Assembly (NCBI GenBank): GCA_029392055.1 | Contig: CP113928.1 | Span: 804,501 to 868,500, forward strand | From: Leuconostocaceae bacterium ESL0723 | GTDB taxonomy: Bacteria; Bacillota; Bacilli; Lactobacillales; Lactobacillaceae | Length of the DNA stretch: 64,000 bases | Direction: 5' to 3' | In this document: piece after piece, positions 3,395 to 58,896 of the stretch | How the letters are laid out: each line of letters starts with the position of its first letter | Position numbering within the stretch: the first letter of the stretch is position 1 | The notes under the pieces: generated by a model | The model's database searches: none | Seen by the model: the letters and a program-made list of their open reading frames with translations, nothing else | What the model was told of the DNA's origin: nothing | Translations under genes and position numbers: made by a program

Positions 3395-4549
3395 TCATTT
3401 TTCAGCAATCTGGAAGGCCTGTTCCAAATCCGCAATCAAGTCTTCGGGATCTTCTAAGCCAACTGACAGGCGAACCAGGCTAGGTGTAATCCCCACCTTT
3501 TCCCGCTCGGCCACTGGCAGTTCGACGTGGGTCATAAAGTATGGCAGCTCAATCAAACTTTCAACTGAACCAAGGCTCACAGCCAGCCAAATCAACTTGG
3601 TGTTGTTGACCAACTTCTTGGGATCAATCCGGTCGTTAACTTCAAAGCTAATCACGCCACCCGAGCCCTTGAGCTCATCTTTGGCAACGTCGGCATCCCC
3701 AAAGCGGCCGGGATAGTAAATTCGGTTAATGAAATCCGACTTGGTCTCCAAGTAGTCGAGCACCTTCTTGGCATTTTGCACGTGACGGTCCAAGCGCACC
3801 GACAAAGTCTTAATGCCACGAATAACCAGCATACAGTCTTCCGGCGCTAAGATACCACCAACTGCGTTTTGACAAAAGTAGAGCTGATCGCCGATTGCGT
3901 CGTCATTGGTTACAACTAAACCAGCAATGACATCGGAATGACCACCCAGATACTTGGTCGCTGAATGGATAACCACATCGGCCCCCAAGGTCAGCGGCTG
4001 CTGAAAATACGGCGTCAGGAAGGTATTATCCACAATCGTCAGAACGCCGTGCTTTTTAGCAATGGCCGATACGCCCTTAATACTAGTCACCTTCATGAAG
4101 GGGTTGTCAATTGGTTCGAAGTAAATCGCCTTGGTATTGTCCTGAATGGCGGCTTCGACCGCGTCCAAATCCTGGGTATCCACCTGTGTAAATTCAATGT
4201 CTAACTTCTTGAGATAGTCATTAATCAGGCGGAAAGTGCCCCCATAAATATTTTGACTGACAACGATATGGTCACCGGGCTTGAAATTAGTAAAGACGGC
4301 GTGGATGGCTGCACTCCCAGAAGCAAAGGCGTAACCATGCTTGGCCTCTTCTAGGACTGCGATTTGATCTTCCAAGTACTCCCGAGTTGGGTTTAACGAA
4401 CGGGAATAGTCGTACTTATTTTCTGCATCTATGTCATCAAAGGCAAAGGTAGTCGACTGGTAGATGGGCACGTTAACGGCCCCAGTATTGTTATCATGCA
4501 GCTGGTTCAGTCCCTTACCAAAAACTAATTTCGTGTTAAATCCGGTCAT
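3395..4549 (-). CDS. PLP-dependent trans-sulfuration enzyme (cystathionine gamma-synthase/lyase family)
   Basis: Cytosolic pyridoxal-phosphate enzyme of 384 residues from the Cys/Met metabolism family. The Schiff-base lysine is Lys199 in HSATKYLGGHSDV, the phosphate-contacting YDYSRSLNPTRE is near residue 46, and FASGSAAIHA near 75 is the cofactor loop. The family includes cystathionine gamma-synthase, cystathionine beta-lyase, cystathionine gamma-lyase and O-acylhomoserine sulfhydrylase, and these cannot be separated reliably by eye. The T-box leader with a probable methionine specifier favours a role in making methionine or homocysteine. Start is the ATG at 4549. It stands alone, with no met neighbour in the window, and ends at a bidirectional terminator. 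Confidence 0.9.
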   Translation of the reverse strand: MTGFNTKLVFGKGLNQLHDNNTGAVNVPIYQSTTFAFDDIDAENKYDYSRSLNPTREYLEDQIAVLEEAKHGYAFASGSAAIHAVFTNFKPGDHIVVSQNIYGGTFRLINDYLKKLDIEFTQVDTQDLDAVEAAIQDNTKAIYFEPIDNPFMKVTSIKGVSAIAKKHGVLTIVDNTFLTPYFQQPLTLGADVVIHSATKYLGGHSDVIAGLVVTNDDAIGDQLYFCQNAVGGILAPEDCMLVIRGIKTLSVRLDRHVQNAKKVLDYLETKSDFINRIYYPGRFGDADVAKDELKGSGGVISFEVNDRIDPKKLVNNTKLIWLAVSLGSVESLIELPYFMTHVELPVAEREKVGITPSLVRLSVGLEDPEDLIADLEQAFQIAEK

Positions 4550-4568: not shown

Positions 4569-4861
4569 CCAATAAAAAATCCCGCAGTCTAAAAATTTAG
4601 ACTACGGGACGCTCAAAAACGTGTTACCACCCTGGTTCTAGCCGGCATCACTACCGCCTACTCGACAAGTACGTCAACTAAATGGCCGAGATACTCTGAC
4701 GCGATAACGGGCGCACCCGAAACCGGCTAACCCACCAGGGTTCACCAATTTAAAACTCCGAGACCATCTTCGCTGCCCCTTCCCTGCCAATTTCCACCAC
4801 ACATTGGCTCTCTATCAGGATTGTGACACCTACTCATCTCATCAACGTTTAGGATAGGTGC
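4569..4861 (-). ncRNA. T-box riboswitch (probably tRNA-Met)
   Basis: The T-box sequence AGGGTGGTAACACG lies at 4620-4633. It is followed by a strong terminator whose arms are CCCGTAGTCTAAA and TTTAGACTGCGGG, then TTTTTTATT. Upstream is a Stem I-like region with GATAGAGAGCC and a GGC return arm. An ATG triplet at 4765-4767, in GCGAAGATGGTCTC, sits where the specifier codon is expected and fits the trans-sulfuration gene. Uncharged tRNA should stabilise the antiterminator. The T-box call is firm; the specifier is inferred. Confidence 0.9.
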
Positions 4862-4940: not shown

Positions 4941-5984
4941 TTAGTTAAATTCACCATCCCAGGCAATGTCATCGACACTGGCCTGACGCAGATTAACGTG
5001 GTGCTGCTTGCCGTAACGGTACCAGTGCCAGACCTGGTCAATCTGCAACCAGGTCGGCCAGCTAACGCTGATATCAGAAAAGAAAGACTTTGATTCCCGC
5101 CAGGCCTGCCAGGTTTTAAGCGGGTGGCGGAAGAAATCCGGCACCAGAGCCAAATCGGTCCGCCGCGGCGTCTTCACTCGTAATGGTTGGCCATCCCAGA
5201 AATCAGCATTAAACAGCACTAAGCCACTGGTAGCCCGGGGGTTAATATCAATAAAGTACAGACCGCCAGTCTTAGCGCTTTCCATTATATCGGCCCCAAA
5301 AAAGCCGGTGTAATTAGTGTGCTCAATCAGACGGGCAGCCGCGTTAACGATGTCAGGTCGGTGGTGATTTTTAATCAGCACGCTGGACGAACCTTGGAAG
5401 TTAAAGGCCTTGTCATAGACCACGGCGCCGAGAACTTCGCCCTTTTCGGCCACCAGGCTCAGACACCACTCCTTACCCGTAATTTTTTCCTGGTAAAAAT
5501 GGGGCTGGTCCAGGTTGGCATCTCCCACGCTGGTAAAACGGGAGTAATCGTTCTTTAAAATTCGATCCGGACCAGGTTCATTATAGGCATGTGGTGCTAA
5601 CAAACCAGCGTCTTGCAAAACCTGGGCGTAGTGTTCCTTGTGGTGTAACTGGGCCATGGTCGCAAAGTCAGCCGCAAACAAGGGTGCCTTGAGCTGGTCA
5701 CGACCGCGACTCAACCAGAACGTCTCTTCGTTAGTTGGCACAATTAGGTCAATCTTAAAATCGGCAACCTGCTGGTTAATCTGATCCAGGTAGGTTTGAT
5801 TATCATAGCGGCAGGAAGCTGTTAGGGTAAAGGCCTGAATTCCTTTTAGAGACTTGCCAAGGGCAAAATCAACACTGTCAGTGGTCCAGACCTGCACGCC
5901 GGCATTAATAAATTCCTGCATCAGGGCTAGAGCAATCGGTGAACGTGCCCCGGTTACTAAGACTCGTTTCCCACGTAAATCCAT
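4941..5984 (-). CDS. ATP-grasp family ligase, last gene of the five-gene operon
   Basis: Predicted ATP-dependent carboxylate ligase of 347 residues; family members join an acyl phosphate to an amine, thiol or carboxylate nucleophile. An N-terminal Rossmann-like segment (VTGARSPIA, residues 10-18) precedes the ATP-grasp fold, with EKITGKEWCLSLV near 166 and the metal/ATP motif YFIDINPRATSG at 243-254. A longer in-frame reading reaches 6053, but it would overlap the preceding gene. GAAAGGTAGG just before the ATG at 5984 supports this start. It lies 7 bp after the PaaK-like gene. The substrate is unknown. The context suggests it couples an amino acid or similar group to the product of the other four enzymes, which is inference. 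Confidence 0.8.
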   Translation of the reverse strand: MDLRGKRVLVTGARSPIALALMQEFINAGVQVWTTDSVDFALGKSLKGIQAFTLTASCRYDNQTYLDQINQQVADFKIDLIVPTNEETFWLSRGRDQLKAPLFAADFATMAQLHHKEHYAQVLQDAGLLAPHAYNEPGPDRILKNDYSRFTSVGDANLDQPHFYQEKITGKEWCLSLVAEKGEVLGAVVYDKAFNFQGSSSVLIKNHHRPDIVNAAARLIEHTNYTGFFGADIMESAKTGGLYFIDINPRATSGLVLFNADFWDGQPLRVKTPRRTDLALVPDFFRHPLKTWQAWRESKSFFSDISVSWPTWLQIDQVWHWYRYGKQHHVNLRQASVDDIAWDGEFN

Positions 5985-5991
5985 GCTAATC

Positions 5992-7275
5992 CTACCTTTC
6001 TCGTACAATCTTACGCCGCTTTCCCATTTTAAAGTCGTAGTGGTAAGGCACATAGCTAACCGGCAGTGGCTCTAATCCCTGCTTTTCAAAGAAGTCTGCG
6101 AAACTTTGCGCCACCGCGTCCTGGTAGGCCGCATCGTCTAGGGCTACTTGGAGACTCCGGTCCTGCTTCTGTAAGATTTGATAATTTTGAATCCGGTTGT
6201 CGGCTTCCAACACCACCTTACGCAAGAAGTCGGGGAAGACCTGGCGCCGGTCGCCATTTACAGTGGTGAATTCTAGAACGTCATCTTCTCGGCCAATAAT
6301 CCGGTCTAGGGCCAAATAAGGTGACCCACAAGGACAGGGGGTAGCCCGTTCCTGCAAGACATCATTGAGCCGGTAACGGATTAGGGGCTGTGAATGCCGG
6401 TAAAAATCAGTAATCACTGGCGCAAAGAGGCGCTGTTCTCCATCCAAAACATCCTTTTCCACTAAGAGATTATCCTCATTCATGTGCAGGGTCCCATAAG
6501 CGCAGGTTGTCGCCAAAAAACCTTCAGTCGCCTGGTAAACCTGGTGAATGGGTTGATTGGTCGCCTGAGATAGCCAGTCCTGGTCTTCCGGTTCGAGGGT
6601 CTCCGCCACCGAAATAATCTTTTTAAAAGGCAATTCCAAGTTCTGATCTTGGTAGTAGCGCACGATTTCTAGGAGCATGGCTGGTGGCCCGACCAAGACC
6701 GTCGCTTCAAAGTCGCGTAAGGCCGCTAGATTCTCGGCCATTGGGGCCATTAAATCAAAGAACTTAAAGGTTAATTTAGCCGAACTCGTGGACTCATAGA
6801 GGTTATTATTAGCCCGCATGAAAAAGGCAATTTTTTGGTGACCCTTCGGCAGGCCGGGTAAGAGCTTTCCCAAAACTGCGCCAGCCCAGAGGCTCTGTTC
6901 GCGCTGGGTGGTCACAAAGACGCCCTGGTTCCCCGAGGTTCCAGAAGACAGACCAACACTGACACCCGGCTTGATTTCCTCGCTAAAGTCGCGGGTATTC
7001 TCCTGGTAACGGGCAAAATCTCGGGCCTGGTCAAAGTCCAGTCCCAGGGTATTAATCCGGTTAAAGTTCCCCATCCAAACCGACTTGTCACTGTAGGGAA
7101 CGGTATTCCAGGGCTGGTTTTTATAGCGGGCGTAGTAGTTACCAGCCGGTAACCAGTTTAACAACCGCTGTAGGCGGCGCTTTTGAACACGCTGTAAGTG
7201 CTTGCGCTTTTTGATAAAGGTGGCGTCCCAGCGGGTCTTAAGATACGACCCGGCCAAGGTGGCTAATTGAACCAT
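5992..7275 (-). CDS. PaaK/CapK-like adenylate-forming enzyme (F390 synthetase-related)
   Basis: ANL-superfamily enzyme of 427 residues that should activate a carboxylic acid as acyl-AMP. The phosphate-binding loop SSGTSGNQG is at 110-118, the aromatic/Glu motif YQATEG at 247-252, a PaaK-type CxCG (PCPCGSPY) at 313-320, and the hinge-like IIGREDDVL at 326-334. It belongs with phenylacetate-CoA ligase, CapK and F390 synthetase-related proteins rather than with fatty acyl-CoA ligases. The start at 7275 follows AGAGGAG and overlaps the 3' end of the hydrolase gene by 13 bp, indicating translational coupling. The acid substrate and the final acceptor (CoA, an amine or an intramolecular hydroxyl) are not visible from sequence. 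Confidence 0.83.
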   Translation of the reverse strand: MVQLATLAGSYLKTRWDATFIKKRKHLQRVQKRRLQRLLNWLPAGNYYARYKNQPWNTVPYSDKSVWMGNFNRINTLGLDFDQARDFARYQENTRDFSEEIKPGVSVGLSSGTSGNQGVFVTTQREQSLWAGAVLGKLLPGLPKGHQKIAFFMRANNNLYESTSSAKLTFKFFDLMAPMAENLAALRDFEATVLVGPPAMLLEIVRYYQDQNLELPFKKIISVAETLEPEDQDWLSQATNQPIHQVYQATEGFLATTCAYGTLHMNEDNLLVEKDVLDGEQRLFAPVITDFYRHSQPLIRYRLNDVLQERATPCPCGSPYLALDRIIGREDDVLEFTTVNGDRRQVFPDFLRKVVLEADNRIQNYQILQKQDRSLQVALDDAAYQDAVAQSFADFFEKQGLEPLPVSYVPYHYDFKMGKRRKIVRER

Positions 7276-8066
7276 TGGCTGCTCCTCTTTTCATGTGAAA
7301 GTATGATATCGTAGCCGTCTTTGCGGTACTGACGTAGCTTTTCCATGCTGGCCAGGTAATCATCCCAGGAATGCATGATAATGCCGGCGGCCCGAATTGG
7401 TCCGTCAGCCGGATCATCAATGGCTTCCTGAGTCCAAGAGGCATCAGCCCCCAGTAAGGTCGGTTTGCCGGTCCGCTGGTCAACAAAGGCCAGGCCAAAC
7501 ATACCCTGACTATGACCAGGTAGGTCAACCACGGTCAGTCCCCCCTCCTCAAAGGGTACCTGACCAGACCGGTCGTCGATTTCTTGGAAGCGTCCATCCA
7601 GAGGTTCAATCAAATCCTTCAAATAGCCATGACGAACCTGGTTAAAACCAGCTAGGGATTGCACAAACTCGTATTCTGACAGGTGTCCGACCAGCTCCTG
7701 GTCCATTAGGGGCCCAAGGCCGCCGACGTGGTCAGCGTGCAGGTGGGACAAAATCACCATCTTAACATCGGCCAGACTGATATCGTGCTGATTGAGCTGC
7801 TTTAAGACCGCCTGTTCGGGTTTAGTGCTAACCGGGGTCCCCCAGCGGTAAAAATGTTGGGGAAAGGCCCGGCTGGCTTCGAAAAACTGTCGGCTGTAGC
7901 CCGTATCAAAGAGAATGTAACCGTAGTCATCATGCCATAGCAAAAAAGCCAGGGCTGGAATCTTTTGAATGCCCAGCTGGCCGTGCTTTTTATTCATTAA
8001 ACGTCCGGGCGCAAAGGTGTGCCCGGTATCTAAGATGGCTTTCAGTCTAACCTTGCTGGTTGGCAT
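7263..8066 (-). CDS. Metallo-beta-lactamase-fold hydrolase (lactonase/thioesterase-like)
   Basis: Soluble dimetal hydrolase of 267 residues. All metal ligands are present: HLHADH with His108, His110, Asp112 and His113, then His185 in LPGHSQG, Asp208 in LGADASW and His258 in LSHEK. The overall layout resembles acyl-homoserine lactonases of the AiiA type, so a lactone, thioester or ester substrate is plausible. A TTG codon at 8072 also opens the frame, but AAGGAG sits seven bases before the ATG at 8066, so that start is chosen. It overlaps the upstream reductase gene by 20 bp and the downstream PaaK-like gene by 13 bp, placing it firmly in the operon. Confidence 0.85.
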   Translation of the reverse strand: MPTSKVRLKAILDTGHTFAPGRLMNKKHGQLGIQKIPALAFLLWHDDYGYILFDTGYSRQFFEASRAFPQHFYRWGTPVSTKPEQAVLKQLNQHDISLADVKMVILSHLHADHVGGLGPLMDQELVGHLSEYEFVQSLAGFNQVRHGYLKDLIEPLDGRFQEIDDRSGQVPFEEGGLTVVDLPGHSQGMFGLAFVDQRTGKPTLLGADASWTQEAIDDPADGPIRAAGIIMHSWDDYLASMEKLRQYRKDGYDIILSHEKRSSQWFN

Positions 8067-9039
8067 CCACAAACTCCTTAATCCCCTCTTCCACCGTTTT
8101 CACTGGCTGGTAGTGGAGCAAATCTTGGGCTTTTTTAATCGACAGGGTCTGGGTCCGACCTAGGACACTGGCCACGTAACGCGTCAGCAGTGGCTCCTGG
8201 TCCTTTTTAAAGTGCCGGTGGAAAACTTCATCCAAGTAGCCAACCCAGTACAAAAGCCGAAACGGAATGGCCTTAAATTTCAAGGGCACCCCCAACTGCT
8301 GGGTCAGAGATTCCAGCAGGTCATACATCCGGCGCGGATCACCGTTGGTGATGTTATAGGCCTGGTTAATGGCGTCCGGGTTGTTGGTTTCCACCGAGAG
8401 GCGGATGGCCTCAACGACATTATCAACATTAGTGACATCAACCCACTGCTGCTTACCCTTAGTTGGCATCGGAATCCCACCCTGGGCATTCCGTTCCAAG
8501 AGCGGCTTTAAAATGGTCTCGTCATGGGGCCCAAAAATTGCCCGGGGACGCAGAATAATATAGGGTAAACCACTCTGTCGGACTAATTCATCGGCTTCAG
8601 CCTTGGTTCGCGCGTACTCATTGGCAAAGACCGTTGGTAGTGGGTAGGTTTCGGTCACGTTTTGCGCCGTTTCGTAGCGGAAGTAAATCGAAGGAGAAGA
8701 AATCTGAATGAAGCGTTGCACGTCGGCCTGCTGACCAACGGCCAGCATGTTCTTCGTACCAACCACATTGGCCTCTTCAAACCACTCCTTGGGTCCCCAG
8801 TACTCTGACCGGGCGGCCGCATGGATAATCATATCTGGGGCCAGGTCGACTAGCTTTTTTTGGTCAGCCGGGGTCATTTTAGCCAAGTCCATGGCAATAA
8901 AGTGAACCGGGTACTTTTCCGTTAGTTCCTGCCCAATTTTCTGGTTACGGCCAATCCCGTATATTTCATATTGTGAGGACAGGTTGGCAATAAATTGCCG
9001 GCCTAGCAGACCGGTTGCGCCGGTTAGTAGTATTTTCAT
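8047..9039 (-). CDS. NAD(P)-dependent reductase/epimerase, extended SDR (OleD/3-beta-HSD-like)
   Basis: Extended short-chain dehydrogenase of 330 residues. It has the nucleotide motif GATGLLG (7-13), catalytic Tyr142-xxx-Lys146 in EYARTKAEAD, a conserved ISSPSIYF serine region near 113, and ILRPRAIFGPHDETILKP (162-179), the signature of the 3-beta-HSD/OleD branch rather than the sugar epimerases. OleD enzymes reduce the beta-keto acid made by an OleA condensing enzyme. Here the gene directly follows a KAS III-like gene (the two share base 9039), so reduction of that enzyme's product is the likely role. The equivalence to OleD is inferred from motifs and neighbourhood only. Confidence 0.83.
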   Translation of the reverse strand: MKILLTGATGLLGRQFIANLSSQYEIYGIGRNQKIGQELTEKYPVHFIAMDLAKMTPADQKKLVDLAPDMIIHAAARSEYWGPKEWFEEANVVGTKNMLAVGQQADVQRFIQISSPSIYFRYETAQNVTETYPLPTVFANEYARTKAEADELVRQSGLPYIILRPRAIFGPHDETILKPLLERNAQGGIPMPTKGKQQWVDVTNVDNVVEAIRLSVETNNPDAINQAYNITNGDPRRMYDLLESLTQQLGVPLKFKAIPFRLLYWVGYLDEVFHRHFKKDQEPLLTRYVASVLGRTQTLSIKKAQDLLHYQPVKTVEEGIKEFVDANQQG

Positions 9040-10040
9040 TAGTATTCAAAAACCAATCCTTGCATCGTCAAGCCGGCCGCAGTTCCAATCATCAGAACCT
9101 TGTCACCGCGCTTAATGTCGCCGCGGTCAATAGCCAAACTCAGGGCAGTTGGAATTGAAGCTGAAACCATGTTGCCGTGGTCGTTGATGATGTTATAGAA
9201 CTTTTCATCCGGGATATCCAGATGCTTTTTCATGATTTTCATGGCCAAACCACTCGCCTGGTGAGGAATCACCATGTCGATGTCGTCCATCTTCAAACCA
9301 GCTTCGTCCAAGAGGTTTTCTACAAAGGCTGGCACCTTCCGCATGGCCAGGCGGAAAGTCGCCTGACCATCCATGTGGAACATAAAGTCGGTCTTAGGAC
9401 GGTCTGGGTAGGTCTTAGGTGGGATGGCAGAACCACCACCACGAATTTCCGTGTCGTGAGCGCCCATGCCATAAGTAGCCATCTTGTTGGCATAAATCTT
9501 TGCCGGACCTTCTCCGTCCCGTTCCAGGATAGCGGCTGCCGATCCATCACCAAACAAAAGCGCGTTCTTAGGCTCGTCATAGTTCAATGACAGAGATGGG
9601 AGATCTGTGCTAACGACGGCTACCCGCTGGTACTTGCCCAGGTTAATCATGTTCGTCATCAGGTCAAAGGCGGTCGCAAAGCTAATGCAGGTCGCATTGA
9701 CATCATAGGCTGGAATGCCGGCTGCTTCTTCACCGTAGGCTGCCTGCAGTAAAGGCGCCGTTGCCGGAATGGCCTGGCTTGGTACCGCTGAGGCACAGAT
9801 AATCTGATCTAGGTCGGTCACCTTCAAACCAGCCCGGTCTAAGGCCTTGTCCAAGGCCGCCTTAGCTAGTTGAATACCTTCATCGTTAACGCCTTCTACT
9901 TCGGCGTAGCGCCGGGAATGAATCCCAGTTACGCGCTCAGCCCAGACTGGGTCAACGTTCATTTCCTTTGCTAAATCACTGGTCAAAACCACGTGGTCCG
10001 GTTCAGCAGTGCCCATACTTGCCAACTTCGTTGTGTACAT
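9039..10040 (-). CDS. KAS III/FabH-like condensing enzyme, first gene of the five-gene operon
   Basis: Thiolase-superfamily condensing enzyme of 333 residues. The catalytic triad is complete: Cys118 in DVNATCISFATAF, His260 in VIPHQASG and Asn290 in NDHGNMVSASIP. GIHSRRY near 39 matches the FabH substrate-tunnel arginine segment. There is no acyl carrier protein, malonyl transferase or other fab gene nearby, unlike the normal position of fabH, so this is probably a specialised condensing enzyme, comparable to OleA, rather than the housekeeping FabH. It heads the operon behind a promoter carrying an inverted repeat. It could still act on acyl-ACP from primary fatty acid synthesis. Confidence 0.87.
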   Translation of the reverse strand: MYTTKLASMGTAEPDHVVLTSDLAKEMNVDPVWAERVTGIHSRRYAEVEGVNDEGIQLAKAALDKALDRAGLKVTDLDQIICASAVPSQAIPATAPLLQAAYGEEAAGIPAYDVNATCISFATAFDLMTNMINLGKYQRVAVVSTDLPSLSLNYDEPKNALLFGDGSAAAILERDGEGPAKIYANKMATYGMGAHDTEIRGGGSAIPPKTYPDRPKTDFMFHMDGQATFRLAMRKVPAFVENLLDEAGLKMDDIDMVIPHQASGLAMKIMKKHLDIPDEKFYNIINDHGNMVSASIPTALSLAIDRGDIKRGDKVLMIGTAAGLTMQGLVFEY

Positions 10041-10086
10041 CGTGTGCCTCGCTTCTAATATTTTTTAGTTCTGAACTTACCTGGGT

Positions 10087-10119
10087 ATTCTACATTTGTT
10101 ACTAAAATATTTCAAATGT
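10087..10119 (-). promoter_or_regulatory. Promoter of the five-gene operon with inverted repeat
   Basis: TTGAAA (10110-10115) and TAGAAT (10087-10092) are spaced 17 bp apart. ACATTTG (10092-10098) and CAAATGT (10113-10119) form a perfect 7-bp inverted repeat with a 14-bp spacer that brackets the core promoter. This could be an operator. No regulator gene belongs to the operon. Confidence 0.6.
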
Positions 10120-10150: not shown

Positions 10151-10178
10151 AAAAAAGGATTCGATTAGAATCCTTTTT
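10151..10178 (-). terminator. Terminator after the DUF3278 gene
   Basis: AAAAAGGATTC and GAATCCTTTTT form an 11-bp perfect stem around a 5-nt loop. On the minus strand it is followed by a further T and TATT. It isolates the XRE/DUF3278 pair from the five-gene operon downstream. Confidence 0.8.
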
Positions 10179-12532: not shown

Positions 12533-13108
12533 ATGAACATCTTGGTTATCTATGCCTACCCCAATCACACCGGTTTGAACTATGCCATCTTGAATCGAAT
12601 TCGAAAAAATTTAAATTCAAGGCATAAAGTTAAAATTTTAGACCTGTATGAAGATGACTTTAACCCGATTCTGGTCTTCAATCAAGCCCACCGGCGCCGT
12701 GACTTGGACCAGGAACCGGCCATGGCCCCCTACCGTAAAATGGTTCAGGAGGCCGATTTTCTCATTTTCGTTTATCCCATTTGGTGGGGTGGCATGCCGG
12801 CCATTTTGAAGGGCTTTATTGACCGGGTCTTTGTGAAGGGCTTTGCCTACCATTATCCCAACGGTGGCCTCCGACCGGAAGGACTCCTGCCAGGTAAGTC
12901 CGCCTGGATTGTCAATACCTGTGACACCCCTGGCTTCTATATTAAGCTCTTCCAGGAAGACTACGGCCGAATCTTAAAGCGCCAGGTCTTAAAGATGTGT
13001 GGCATCCGCGTGCAAAAGCACAGCCGCCTGAACTTTGTCCGCCGCTCTTCACTCGCTAAGCGGGAAAAGTTCCTGGACAAGGTTGGCAACTACGCCCGTG
13101 AAATTTAA
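12533..13108 (+). CDS. Flavodoxin-fold NAD(P)H oxidoreductase (MdaB/KefF-like), copy 1
   Basis: Cytosolic FMN or FAD enzyme of 191 residues, expected to reduce quinones or related electrophiles by two electrons. It opens with MNILVIYAYPNHTGLN, the phosphate-binding beta-loop of the family, and has the hallmark YPIWWGGMPAILKGFIDRVF near residue 81. AAAGGAG precedes the ATG. A close paralogue follows 295 bp downstream on the same strand with the same length and motifs, so this is a tandem duplication. Copy 1 is richer in G and C than copy 2. Its own terminator (13111-13140) and the second promoter mean the two copies are controlled separately. Confidence 0.88.
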   Translation: MNILVIYAYPNHTGLNYAILNRIRKNLNSRHKVKILDLYEDDFNPILVFNQAHRRRDLDQEPAMAPYRKMVQEADFLIFVYPIWWGGMPAILKGFIDRVFVKGFAYHYPNGGLRPEGLLPGKSAWIVNTCDTPGFYIKLFQEDYGRILKRQVLKMCGIRVQKHSRLNFVRRSSLAKREKFLDKVGNYAREI

Positions 13109-13110
13109 CA

Positions 13111-13140
13111 AAAAAAGCTCTGAATTCAGGGCTCTTTTTT
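13111..13140 (+). terminator. Terminator after oxidoreductase copy 1
   Basis: AAAAAAGCTCTGAATTCAGGGCTCTTTTTT contains near-complementary arms around a GAATTC centre, directly after the stop codon, followed by a T-run. Confidence 0.7.
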
Positions 13141-13254
13141 ATGCAGATGGACTCGAAAATTAGGTAGACCATTTCAAGGGCGAGGACTGCACGTTAAATA
13201 TGCCAAATCATTCTAAACTAGAAACAGTCTAAATTAGAAACGATAATCTAGATT

Positions 13255-13300
13255 AAAAAGAGCTAAAAAACCGGCAAATCGGCATTTTTTAGCTCTTTTT
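13255..13300. terminator. Long AT-rich hairpin in the gap between the two oxidoreductase genes
   Basis: AAAAAGAGCTAAAAAA and TTTTTTAGCTCTTTTT are perfect 16-bp arms around a GC-rich 14-nt centre. It can terminate in either orientation. It lies upstream of the second gene's promoter rather than in a leader, so it probably insulates that promoter. The remainder of 13141-13335 shows only short AT-rich direct repeats (CTAAACTAGAAAC, CTAAATTAGAAAC). Confidence 0.65.
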
Positions 13301-13335
13301 AGTCAAAAATTCTGAATTATTTCAGTTATTTTATG

Positions 13336-13371
13336 AGAATTTTCACCACAAATTCTAATTATGTGTATAAT
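13336..13371 (+). promoter_or_regulatory. Promoter and putative operator of oxidoreductase copy 2
   Basis: The -10 TATAAT at 13366-13371 has a TG extension (TGTGTATAAT). A weak -35 lies near 13342. AGAATTT (13336-13342) and AAATTCT (13350-13356) form a perfect 7-bp inverted repeat over the -35 region, suggesting control by a repressor encoded elsewhere. Confidence 0.65.
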
Positions 13372-13403
13372 GGCTACTATAATCTAACGAGGAGGATCTC
13401 GAC

Positions 13404-13973
13404 ATGAAAGTATTAGTCATCTATGCTTACCCTAACCATACCAGTTATAACTATGCAATTTTAGACCAGGTTAAGAAGAGCTTGGGCATTCATCACGAGG
13501 TCCAAGTCTTAGACCTTTATGAAGAAGACTTTAACCCTACCCTTTTCTTTGACCAAGAACACCGGCGTCACAACCTCAACCAAAATGAGGAAACCGCCAT
13601 TTACCGCGACATGATTAGCCAAGCCGATTTTCTGGTCTTTATCTACCCAATCTGGTGGAGTGGTATGCCAGCCATCTTAAAGGGCTTTATCGACCGCATC
13701 TTCTCCAAGGACTTCGCCTACAAGTATATTGGTGGCCATTCAATCGGCCTGCTTAAGGGCAAGGGCGCGTGGATTATCAATACCAGTGATTCCACCAACT
13801 TCTCCGCTAATTTCCTCCAGCAGGACTACGGCCAGGTCTTAAAGAAGCAAATCTTAAAAATGTGTGGTGTCAAAGTTCAACGCCACAGCCGCTTAAACTT
13901 TCTTTGTCGATCTACCCCAGACAAACGGGAAAAATTCCTCGACAAGGTTGGTCGCTACGGACAAAGAATTTAA
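13404..13973 (+). CDS. Flavodoxin-fold NAD(P)H oxidoreductase (MdaB/KefF-like), copy 2
   Basis: Paralogue of the gene at 12533, 189 residues, with the same start (KVLVIYAYPNHTSYN), the same YPIWWSGMPAILKGFIDRIF motif and the same C-terminal FLDKVGRYGQRI. Expected to be a flavin-dependent quinone or nitro reductase in the cytosol. GAGGAGG precedes the ATG with normal spacing. It has a good extended -10 promoter with an inverted repeat that copy 1 lacks, so this copy is the more likely inducible one. It ends at a bidirectional terminator shared with argF. Confidence 0.88.
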   Translation: MKVLVIYAYPNHTSYNYAILDQVKKSLGIHHEVQVLDLYEEDFNPTLFFDQEHRRHNLNQNEETAIYRDMISQADFLVFIYPIWWSGMPAILKGFIDRIFSKDFAYKYIGGHSIGLLKGKGAWIINTSDSTNFSANFLQQDYGQVLKKQILKMCGVKVQRHSRLNFLCRSTPDKREKFLDKVGRYGQRI

Positions 13974-48493: not shown

Positions 48494-48618
48494 TCAAAAA
48501 AACTGACCTTGTATATTGGCGTACAAGGTCAGTCTTAAAACCAGTTTCATCTCCCTACGCAGGTATTAACCTGACAGGTTCAATGGGTTTAATCTCAACC
48601 AAACGGTACCCCAGATAA
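48494..48618 (-). ncRNA. TPP riboswitch with terminator
   Basis: The minus strand carries the thi-box elements GGGGTACCG, TTGAGA, ACCCATTGAACCTGTCAGG and TTAATACCTGCGTAGGGA (48550-48613). A terminator with ACTGACCTTGTA and TACAAGGTCAGT arms and a TTTTTTT tail follows (48494-48534). It should shut off ykoEDC when thiamine pyrophosphate is plentiful. Confidence 0.95.
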
Positions 48619-48673
48619 TCTATTTATTTAACAACGTCCCTATCTTACTGGAATTCAACCGGCCTGACAAGGG

Positions 48674-58635: not shown

Positions 58636-58840
58636 TGCTTTCTCCTCCCGGAACATAAAAAAGGCTGCTCTTTTGCCTCCGGGGGAACACAAAAAAACAG
58701 CACAAACGTGTTTTTCAACTTCTTTATACCCGACTTTACGGTCGGCCCTGGAATCTCACCAGATCAGCTGCTTGCGCAGGTCGCGGGCTTGTCGTTAAAA
58801 CGCATCACCGCCGGTTAGGACTTTCACCTGACCCCGAAGT
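58636..58840 (-). ncRNA. FMN riboswitch upstream of ribU
   Basis: The RFN aptamer (about 58718-58840) has the conserved elements CTTCGGGGTCAGGTG, AAGTCCTAACCGGCGGT, GCCCGCGA, GATCTGGTGAGA and CAGGGCCGACCGT. Downstream, CCCCCGGA can pair with TCCGGGAGG, masking the ribU ribosome site. AAAAACACGTTTGTGCTGTTTTTTT is also terminator-like. FMN binding should reduce riboflavin uptake. Confidence 0.95.
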
Positions 58841-58896
58841 TATTTGAATAAATTGTATTGTAACATGTTTCTTTTGAAAAAACAGCTACCCCGGTT

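Follow-up and report, generated by a model that had tools for sequence, protein, structure and literature searches.

Which pathway is served by an operon that joins a condensing enzyme, a reductase, a hydrolase, an adenylate-forming enzyme and a ligase? We examined this question for a locus in a 1.43-Mb Lactobacillaceae genome near Convivina, within a stretch of 64,000 nucleotides (the window). A sequence-only reading had described five close-packed genes on one strand, with intact catalytic residues and without acyl carrier protein (ACP), fab or polyketide genes beside them, all of which held. The five genes lie on the minus strand, at the position it had claimed, and encode a KAS III-like condensing enzyme of 333 amino acids (9039–10040; PF08545/PF08541), an OleD-like extended SDR reductase of 330 (8047–9039; PF01370/PF01073), an MBL-fold hydrolase of 267 (7263–8066; PF00753), a TIGR02304 adenylate-forming enzyme of the PaaK superfamily of 427 (5992–7275) and an ATP-grasp ligase of 347 (4941–5984). 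The KAS stop and the SDR start have one base in common (TAATG), the SDR and MBL genes overlap by about 20 nt if the ATG at 8066, with AAGGAG before it, is taken as the MBL start (the open reading frame list has TTG 8072 instead), the MBL and adenylase genes overlap by 13 nt, and a gap of 7 nt separates the adenylase gene from the ATG of the ATP-grasp gene at 5984. Within the window, the operon has no ACP, fab or PKS gene beside it; the fab cluster of this genome and a further FabH lie roughly 0.4–0.5 Mb away, and its three PP-binding proteins are all encoded away from the operon.

The G+C content of the operon (51.5%, compared to 50.2% for the window) and its GC3 resemble those of its surroundings and thus give no compositional sign of recent transfer, and we rejected a foreign base composition. 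On the same strand, a promoter-like TTGAAA-17-TAGAAT (10115–10087) that agrees with 10 of 12 consensus positions overlaps an inverted repeat, ACATTTG-N14-CAAATGT, with 7-nt arms at 10092–10098 and 10113–10119 and 14 nt between them, the whole spanning 10087–10119. The promoter and perfect inverted repeat of the sequence-only reading therefore exist as sequences, but they are near chance level: promoter scans returned 7 sites compared to 7.5 in shuffles, and the 181 AT-rich bases contain ten inverted repeats, this one included. Both elements recur in the sister genome and are missing in Convivina, where the repeat was sought upstream of the operons and not found, and we rejected it as a conserved operator. 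An 11-bp terminator-like stem-loop (10152–10178, no strand assigned) separates the DUF3278 gene from the operon.

Whether the five genes form a unit was asked of 72 loci gathered via the adenylase alone, which were picked by likeness to the query and come mostly from Bacillota. All four of KAS, SDR, MBL and adenylase are present in 65 of these, usually overlapping (median gap between core genes −11 nt) and with an almost fixed SDR–MBL–adenylase order; in the window, this quartet is the four adjacent genes at 5992–10040. Its spread covers Bacillota, Bacteroidota, Actinomycetota and other phyla, with copies in Streptococcus, Paenibacillus, Brevibacillus and Lachnospiraceae, and it is patchy, reaching 2 of 40 genera of the host family. 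One in eight complete E. coli genomes (672 of 5,426) carries it between narI and tyrTV/purU. For the four genes, pairwise distances are correlated with one another (rho 0.69–0.86, where the best of 300 permutations reached 0.21), which is the pattern expected under joint inheritance. Candidate phage copies were rejected, as the SDR matches comprised an annotated YbjS (H31) plus other records that were short or lacked annotation, and the one inspected held no quartet.

The fifth gene varies: an ATP-grasp gene accompanies the quartet in 46 loci, another 15 have an EryCIII/GT28-like glycosyltransferase, and no locus has the two together; this exclusion follows phylogeny, with four changes on the tree sufficient per label. 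Sulfotransferase genes lie near the quartet in the Alphaproteobacteria Ketogulonicigenium and Paracoccus and in Crocinitomix, and the E. coli quartet neighbours PAP2, FA_hydroxylase and FA_desaturase genes. These alternatives fit one acyl core with varied decorations. In a crude motif scan for a carrier protein near the quartet, 10 of 91 loci gave matches, all of them short and implausible frames. Co-occurrence in other genomes thus extends far beyond the host, over a spread, E. coli included, that the sequence-only reading had missed; as for its five-gene unit, the quartet is the real unit and the ATP-grasp gene is one of several alternative accessories.

The ATP-grasp protein matches PF02655 above cut-off and PRK06849 with 149 bits (cut-off 406), and keeps K144 and N248-P-R250 invariant, of which K144, N248 and R250 are presumably ATP- and metal-site residues. 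Its AlphaFold2 model (pLDDT 89.2) is closest to PylC and also near an L-amino-acid ligase. The fold and the conserved residues fit the ligase label, and the model is similar to amide ligases. Among 60 Lactobacillales genomes, full-length strong matches come from the host genome and only two others (G001 and G007), both of which carry the quartet without a glycosyltransferase.

The condensing enzyme retains C118, H260 and N290, as do its relatives, and scores 344 bits against PRK07204 (cut-off 402) and 204 bits against the TIGR00747 fabH model (cut-off 292). It is not the sole FabH of the genome: two others exist, one in the fab cluster with an ACP, so that we rejected a housekeeping FabH identity for the operon's KAS III. 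The reading as a dedicated pathway is supported. The nearest solved structures to the KAS are MxnB and CorB, which match over the whole length, with FabH also close; MxnB reaches 226 bits, compared to about 50 for the OleA chains, which match at the C-terminus only. Where OleA (E117) and PpyS (E105) carry a glutamate base (PMC4578411), the window enzyme has Ile91, and Ile or Leu occurs in 73 of 73 sequences, a hydrophobic residue as in MxnB (Val94). A close analogy to OleA is not supported, and the replacement of this base leads us to expect an activated extender.

In an MxnB/CorB-like route, two beta-ketoacyl thioesters would be joined into an alpha-pyrone that the remaining genes then tailor. 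Such a route would agree with both the whole-length structural match and the hydrophobic residue. Yet pyrone formation needs no reductase, and the SDR is present in 70 of 72 loci; nor does an ACP or, in the window, a PKS gene adjoin the operon, and we consider this route very unlikely.

The SDR, in which Y142 and K146 are intact and kept across relatives, has the OleD model as its best family match (163 bits, below the equivalog cut-off of 580). In the MBL hydrolase, the dimetal set H108xH110xD112H113, H185, D208 and H258 is complete and kept across relatives; HxHxDH-H-D-H is invariant in the alignment, and the checked residues are kept in 73 of 73 sequences. Its nearest structures, by sequence and by predicted model (pLDDT 90.6), are AHL lactonases, whereas against curated AHL lactonase models the best score, 77 bits for AttM, does not reach the cut-off of 390. 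One alignment for structure prediction left out the E. coli row. In AHL lactonases, the catalytic Tyr sits three residues after the bridging Asp; this position is Tyr in the aligned AhlX and GcL, Trp211 in the window protein and Trp in 73 of 73. The hydrolase is lactonase-like but without the lactonase tyrosine.

The sequence-only reading corresponds to an OleABCD-like route, in which the KAS would join two acyl chains head to head, the SDR would reduce the resulting 2-alkyl-3-keto acid, the adenylase would act like OleC in closing a beta-lactone, and this ring would be opened by the lactonase-like MBL. The nearness of the SDR to OleD models, the nearly fixed gene order, the lactonase kinship of the MBL and the fusion of two long chains by MxnB and CorB would all be in keeping with it. 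The missing glutamate base, the weak, C-terminal likeness to OleA, the Trp in place of the lactonase Tyr and the PaaK/TIGR02304 line of the adenylase argue in the other direction, and we regard the route as unlikely. An earlier analogy to OleABCD survives for the reductase only.

The adenylase belongs to TIGR02304 (422 bits, above the cut-off of 251.9), with a conserved SSGTSG motif and C-terminal Lys419 (nine sequences). Phenylacetate-CoA ligases are its nearest relatives, and it falls far under the TIGR02155 PaaK cut-off (26.5 bits compared to 646). NCBIfam names TIGR02304 'F390 synthetase-related protein', which assigns no function, and the F390 synthetase link is very weak (19 bits, compared to 459, for a relative).

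In PQS synthesis, PqsA makes the aryl-CoA, PqsD adds malonyl and PqsE is an MBL thioesterase. By the same logic, the adenylase could load an aromatic or unusual starter, to be extended by the KAS III, with the MBL as thioesterase and the SDR reducing the ketone. The enzyme classes are the same, PqsD and PqsC structures match the KAS, and phenylacetate-CoA ligases are close to the adenylase; nevertheless, the PqsD/PqsC matches (72–78 bits) are far below that of MxnB, and fatty-acid desaturase or hydroxylase genes accompany the copies in E. coli and Crocinitomix, which suggests alkyl chains. We think such a starter rather improbable. A horizontally acquired operon for catabolism or detoxification, for example acyl-lactone breakdown, would agree with the same phenylacetate-CoA ligase kinship, with the lactonase-like MBL and with the patchy spread. 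KAS III enzymes, however, work in the synthetic, condensing direction, and the sulfotransferase, glycosyltransferase and desaturase partners likewise point to synthesis, which makes breakdown a highly improbable role.

We favour, tentatively and at somewhat less than even confidence, the view that this operon represents, for the Lactobacillaceae, a widespread and apparently uncharacterised module for acyl biosynthesis, running through acyl activation, condensation, reduction, release and capping. Gene content, intact catalytic residues, conserved linkage, alternative accessories and the family of each enzyme were observed, and the folds of the MBL and ATP-grasp proteins predicted; we infer each chemical step, the sequence of the steps, and which substrates and product they involve. 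The PaaK-like enzyme would adenylate a carboxylic acid and pass it on as a thioester, which the KAS III-like enzyme would join to malonyl or another beta-carbonyl-activated thioester to give a beta-keto thioester, and the OleD-like SDR would reduce this to a beta-hydroxy acyl group; the adenylase could also act after the reductase instead of before the KAS. The MBL hydrolase would then cleave the thioester, or a lactone, to free the hydroxy acid; as it is closer to lactonases than to thioesterases, the thioester-cutting step may be wrong. Here, the ATP-grasp ligase would couple the core with an amine, for which an amino acid is the probable candidate, and elsewhere a glycosyltransferase or sulfotransferase may cap it. 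The lack of a linked ACP, the phylogenetic pattern of the ATP-grasp/glycosyltransferase exclusion and the Bacillota-heavy choice of loci count against this reading.

The quartet product is most likely a fatty-acid-like molecule. A further proposal, slightly less probable than the module reading above, is that the quartet makes an undescribed class of beta-hydroxy-acyl lipids that spans several phyla and whose head group, be it an amino acid, a sugar or a sulfate, depends on the exchangeable accessory enzyme; the operon of the host clade and the narI–tyrTV island of many E. coli would then make different members. The sequence-only reading knew of no characterised product, and we found no described pathway or paper on the gene set in the open-licence literature, which is weak evidence of absence; useful background came only from the MxnB, CorB and OleA literature. 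A four-enzyme module shared across phyla, and by so many E. coli, is apparently without an assigned product. The natural swap of ATP-grasp, glycosyltransferase and sulfotransferase offers a built-in handle on the head-group step, and a lipid or signal, if found, would belong to bacteria that are common in the gut, the mouth and the urinary tract.

Among known systems, the OleABCD olefin/beta-lactone pathway likewise unites in one operon a thiolase-fold condenser and an OleD-like SDR, along with a hydrolase and an AMP-forming enzyme. The window condenser is instead FabH/MxnB-like and lacks the OleA glutamate, the places of OleC and OleB are taken by a PaaK-type adenylase and a lactonase-like MBL, with no counterparts of the OleC beta-lactone synthetase and OleB alpha/beta-hydrolase families in the operon, and quartet loci add an accessory ATP-grasp, glycosyltransferase or sulfotransferase. 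For that ATP-grasp, PylC and L-amino-acid ligases are the nearest folds to the model, at 14–17% identity and a TM of about 0.5–0.6. The closest solved KAS relatives, the stand-alone ketosynthases MxnB and CorB of myxopyronin and corallopyronin, share its hydrophobic residue, whereas the window operon has a reductase and neither a megasynthase nor evidence of a pyrone. In the pqsABCDE alkylquinolone pathway, KAS III enzymes cooperate with an acid-CoA ligase and an MBL thioesterase, whereas the window combines a PaaK-type ligase, an SDR reductase, an ATP-grasp enzyme and a KAS III of another subgroup.

The sequence-only reading described a five-gene operon encoding a KAS III-like condensing enzyme (KAS), an OleD-like reductase (SDR), an MBL-fold hydrolase (MBL), an adenylase and an ATP-grasp ligase; this operon stands (window 4941-10040, minus strand), the adenylase belongs to TIGR02304, and the catalytic residues are intact and conserved in relatives. 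Adjacent genes overlap or are separated by a 7-nt gap, the MBL start codon is most likely the ATG at 8066, and a promoter-like site with a 7-nt inverted repeat lies 5' of the operon. The Convivina operons lack both upstream elements of the window; instead, direct repeats of the type GTTATATTTGTAGCA, which the window does not have, lie 5' of their KAS genes (L041 and L042). Downstream of the operon, a T-box leader (4602-4854, minus strand), whose 94.1 bits narrowly exceed the threshold, precedes a Cys/Met PLP-enzyme gene (3395-4549) and divides the operon from it. Elsewhere in the window, a TPP riboswitch (48535-48623, minus strand) precedes an apparent ECF-type transporter operon, an FMN riboswitch (58713-58845, minus strand) lies before the gene of a small membrane protein that is probably a riboflavin transporter, and an apparent tandem duplication (12533-13973, plus strand) comprises two NAD(P)H-oxidoreductase-like genes that resemble each other (191 and 189 aa).

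The host genome is one contig of 1.43 Mb, and its closest named relative in the searched collection, Lactobacillaceae bacterium L1_55_11, has operon proteins that are ~97-99% identical. The operon KAS is not the sole FabH, a possibility that had been raised against a dedicated pathway: the genome encodes two others, one of them inside a complete fab cluster with ACP, and the operon KAS is therefore dedicated. TIGR02304 occurs in 4 of 301 Lactobacillaceae genomes and 2 of 40 genera, only the window's genus and a second one, recognised as Convivina from matching coordinates, where the five-gene order is kept.

An adenylase alignment, run against a single genome from each species, gave at least 557 relatives, of which the best 80 were kept; once loci from whole-genome searches were included, 72 had enough flank. 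The genes co-occur well beyond the window genome, with KAS near the adenylase in 68/72, SDR in 70/72, MBL in 67/72 and all three in 65/72. Core-gene gaps have a median of -11 nt, and across the four proteins pairwise distances are correlated (rho 0.69-0.86 versus a permutation maximum of 0.21). This quartet is almost certainly one conserved module. Two genomes (L050 and L051) lack the quartet but have a TIGR02304 adenylase that is more remote (~34% identical) and is followed in both by a protein of ~404 aa.

Three layouts recur: KAS, ATP-grasp, SDR, MBL, adenylase in Bacilli, often with a conserved protein 3' of the adenylase (of four members tested initially, one matches a GNAT domain); glycosyltransferase (EryCIII/GT28-like), SDR, MBL, adenylase, KAS in Clostridia, Streptococcus and relatives; and KAS, SDR, MBL, adenylase, ATP-grasp in the window and Convivina. 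ATP-grasp alone is found in 46 loci, the glycosyltransferase alone in 15 and both in none (Fisher p ~7e-9), a value that overstates independence because both labels are clade-like, with 4 changes each on the tree. Lactobacillaceae copies cluster there with ATP-grasp Bacilli (Lederbergia lenta), apart from the streptococcal glycosyltransferase type of their own order, a position that carries the program's long-branch warning and suggests horizontal gain.

The quartet adjoins a sulfotransferase on Ketogulonicigenium (L135:4542-10272) and Paracoccus (L152:2426-8146) plasmids, which also share a divergent TetR regulator; a sulfate ABC transporter comes next in Paracoccus. A Pontibacillus plasmid has it with ATP-grasp, Crocinitomix with a sulfotransferase and desaturase nearby, and Pseudomonas sp. 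Leaf58 has MBL and adenylase only. In Escherichia coli it sits between narI and tyrTV/purU together with genes for PAP2, FA_hydroxylase and FA_desaturase (for example L137:6001-12882 in ABU 83972, NC_017631.1; also L134). Of 5,426 complete genomes, 672 have a match to this seven-gene stretch, and in 671 the match covers at least 80% of it. In strain KE48 it lies on a 386 kb plasmid record, where nar, purU, galU and hns genes flank it.

Against solved structures, KAS scores highest with MxnB (226 bits) and CorB (210), then FabH (153), and OleA chains match weakly, at the C-terminus only. The residue that serves as base in OleA and PpyS (PMC4578411) is Ile or Leu in 73/73 KAS sequences, and Val94 in MxnB; by analogy, the extender should have an activated alpha carbon, as in malonyl or beta-ketoacyl thioesters. 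The SDR is OleD-like, scoring far under the OleD equivalog cut-off. MBL has a lactonase fold by sequence and predicted structure, and because Trp replaces the lactonase Tyr in 73/73, it is probably inactive on homoserine lactones. The adenylase, in the PaaK superfamily, retains the P-loop and C-terminal Lys. For the ATP-grasp AlphaFold2 model (pLDDT 89), the top structural matches are to PylC and to a carbamoyl-phosphate-synthase-like protein, and an L-amino-acid ligase ranks fifth; profile searches also gave 2pn1 and AMdnB, which we take to be a microviridin ligase.

The simplest reading, which we put forward tentatively, is that the quartet makes a beta-hydroxy-acyl core that lineage-specific enzymes cap. 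The adenylase would act before or after KAS, MBL would cleave a thioester or lactone, and the glycosyltransferase, sulfotransferase or ATP-grasp ligase would modify the core; such enzymes target hydroxyl, carboxyl or amine groups, and a beta-hydroxy acid would provide part of these.

No publication on the gene set was found in open-licence full text, the only text searchable, and databases name the proteins only piecemeal ('F390 synthetase-related', 'MBL fold'); the operon in the window thus adds a new member to a module that is apparently uncharacterised. The quartet fails the defining OleABCD features that were tested; in logic, it is related to OleABCD, PQS and MxnB chemistry alike.
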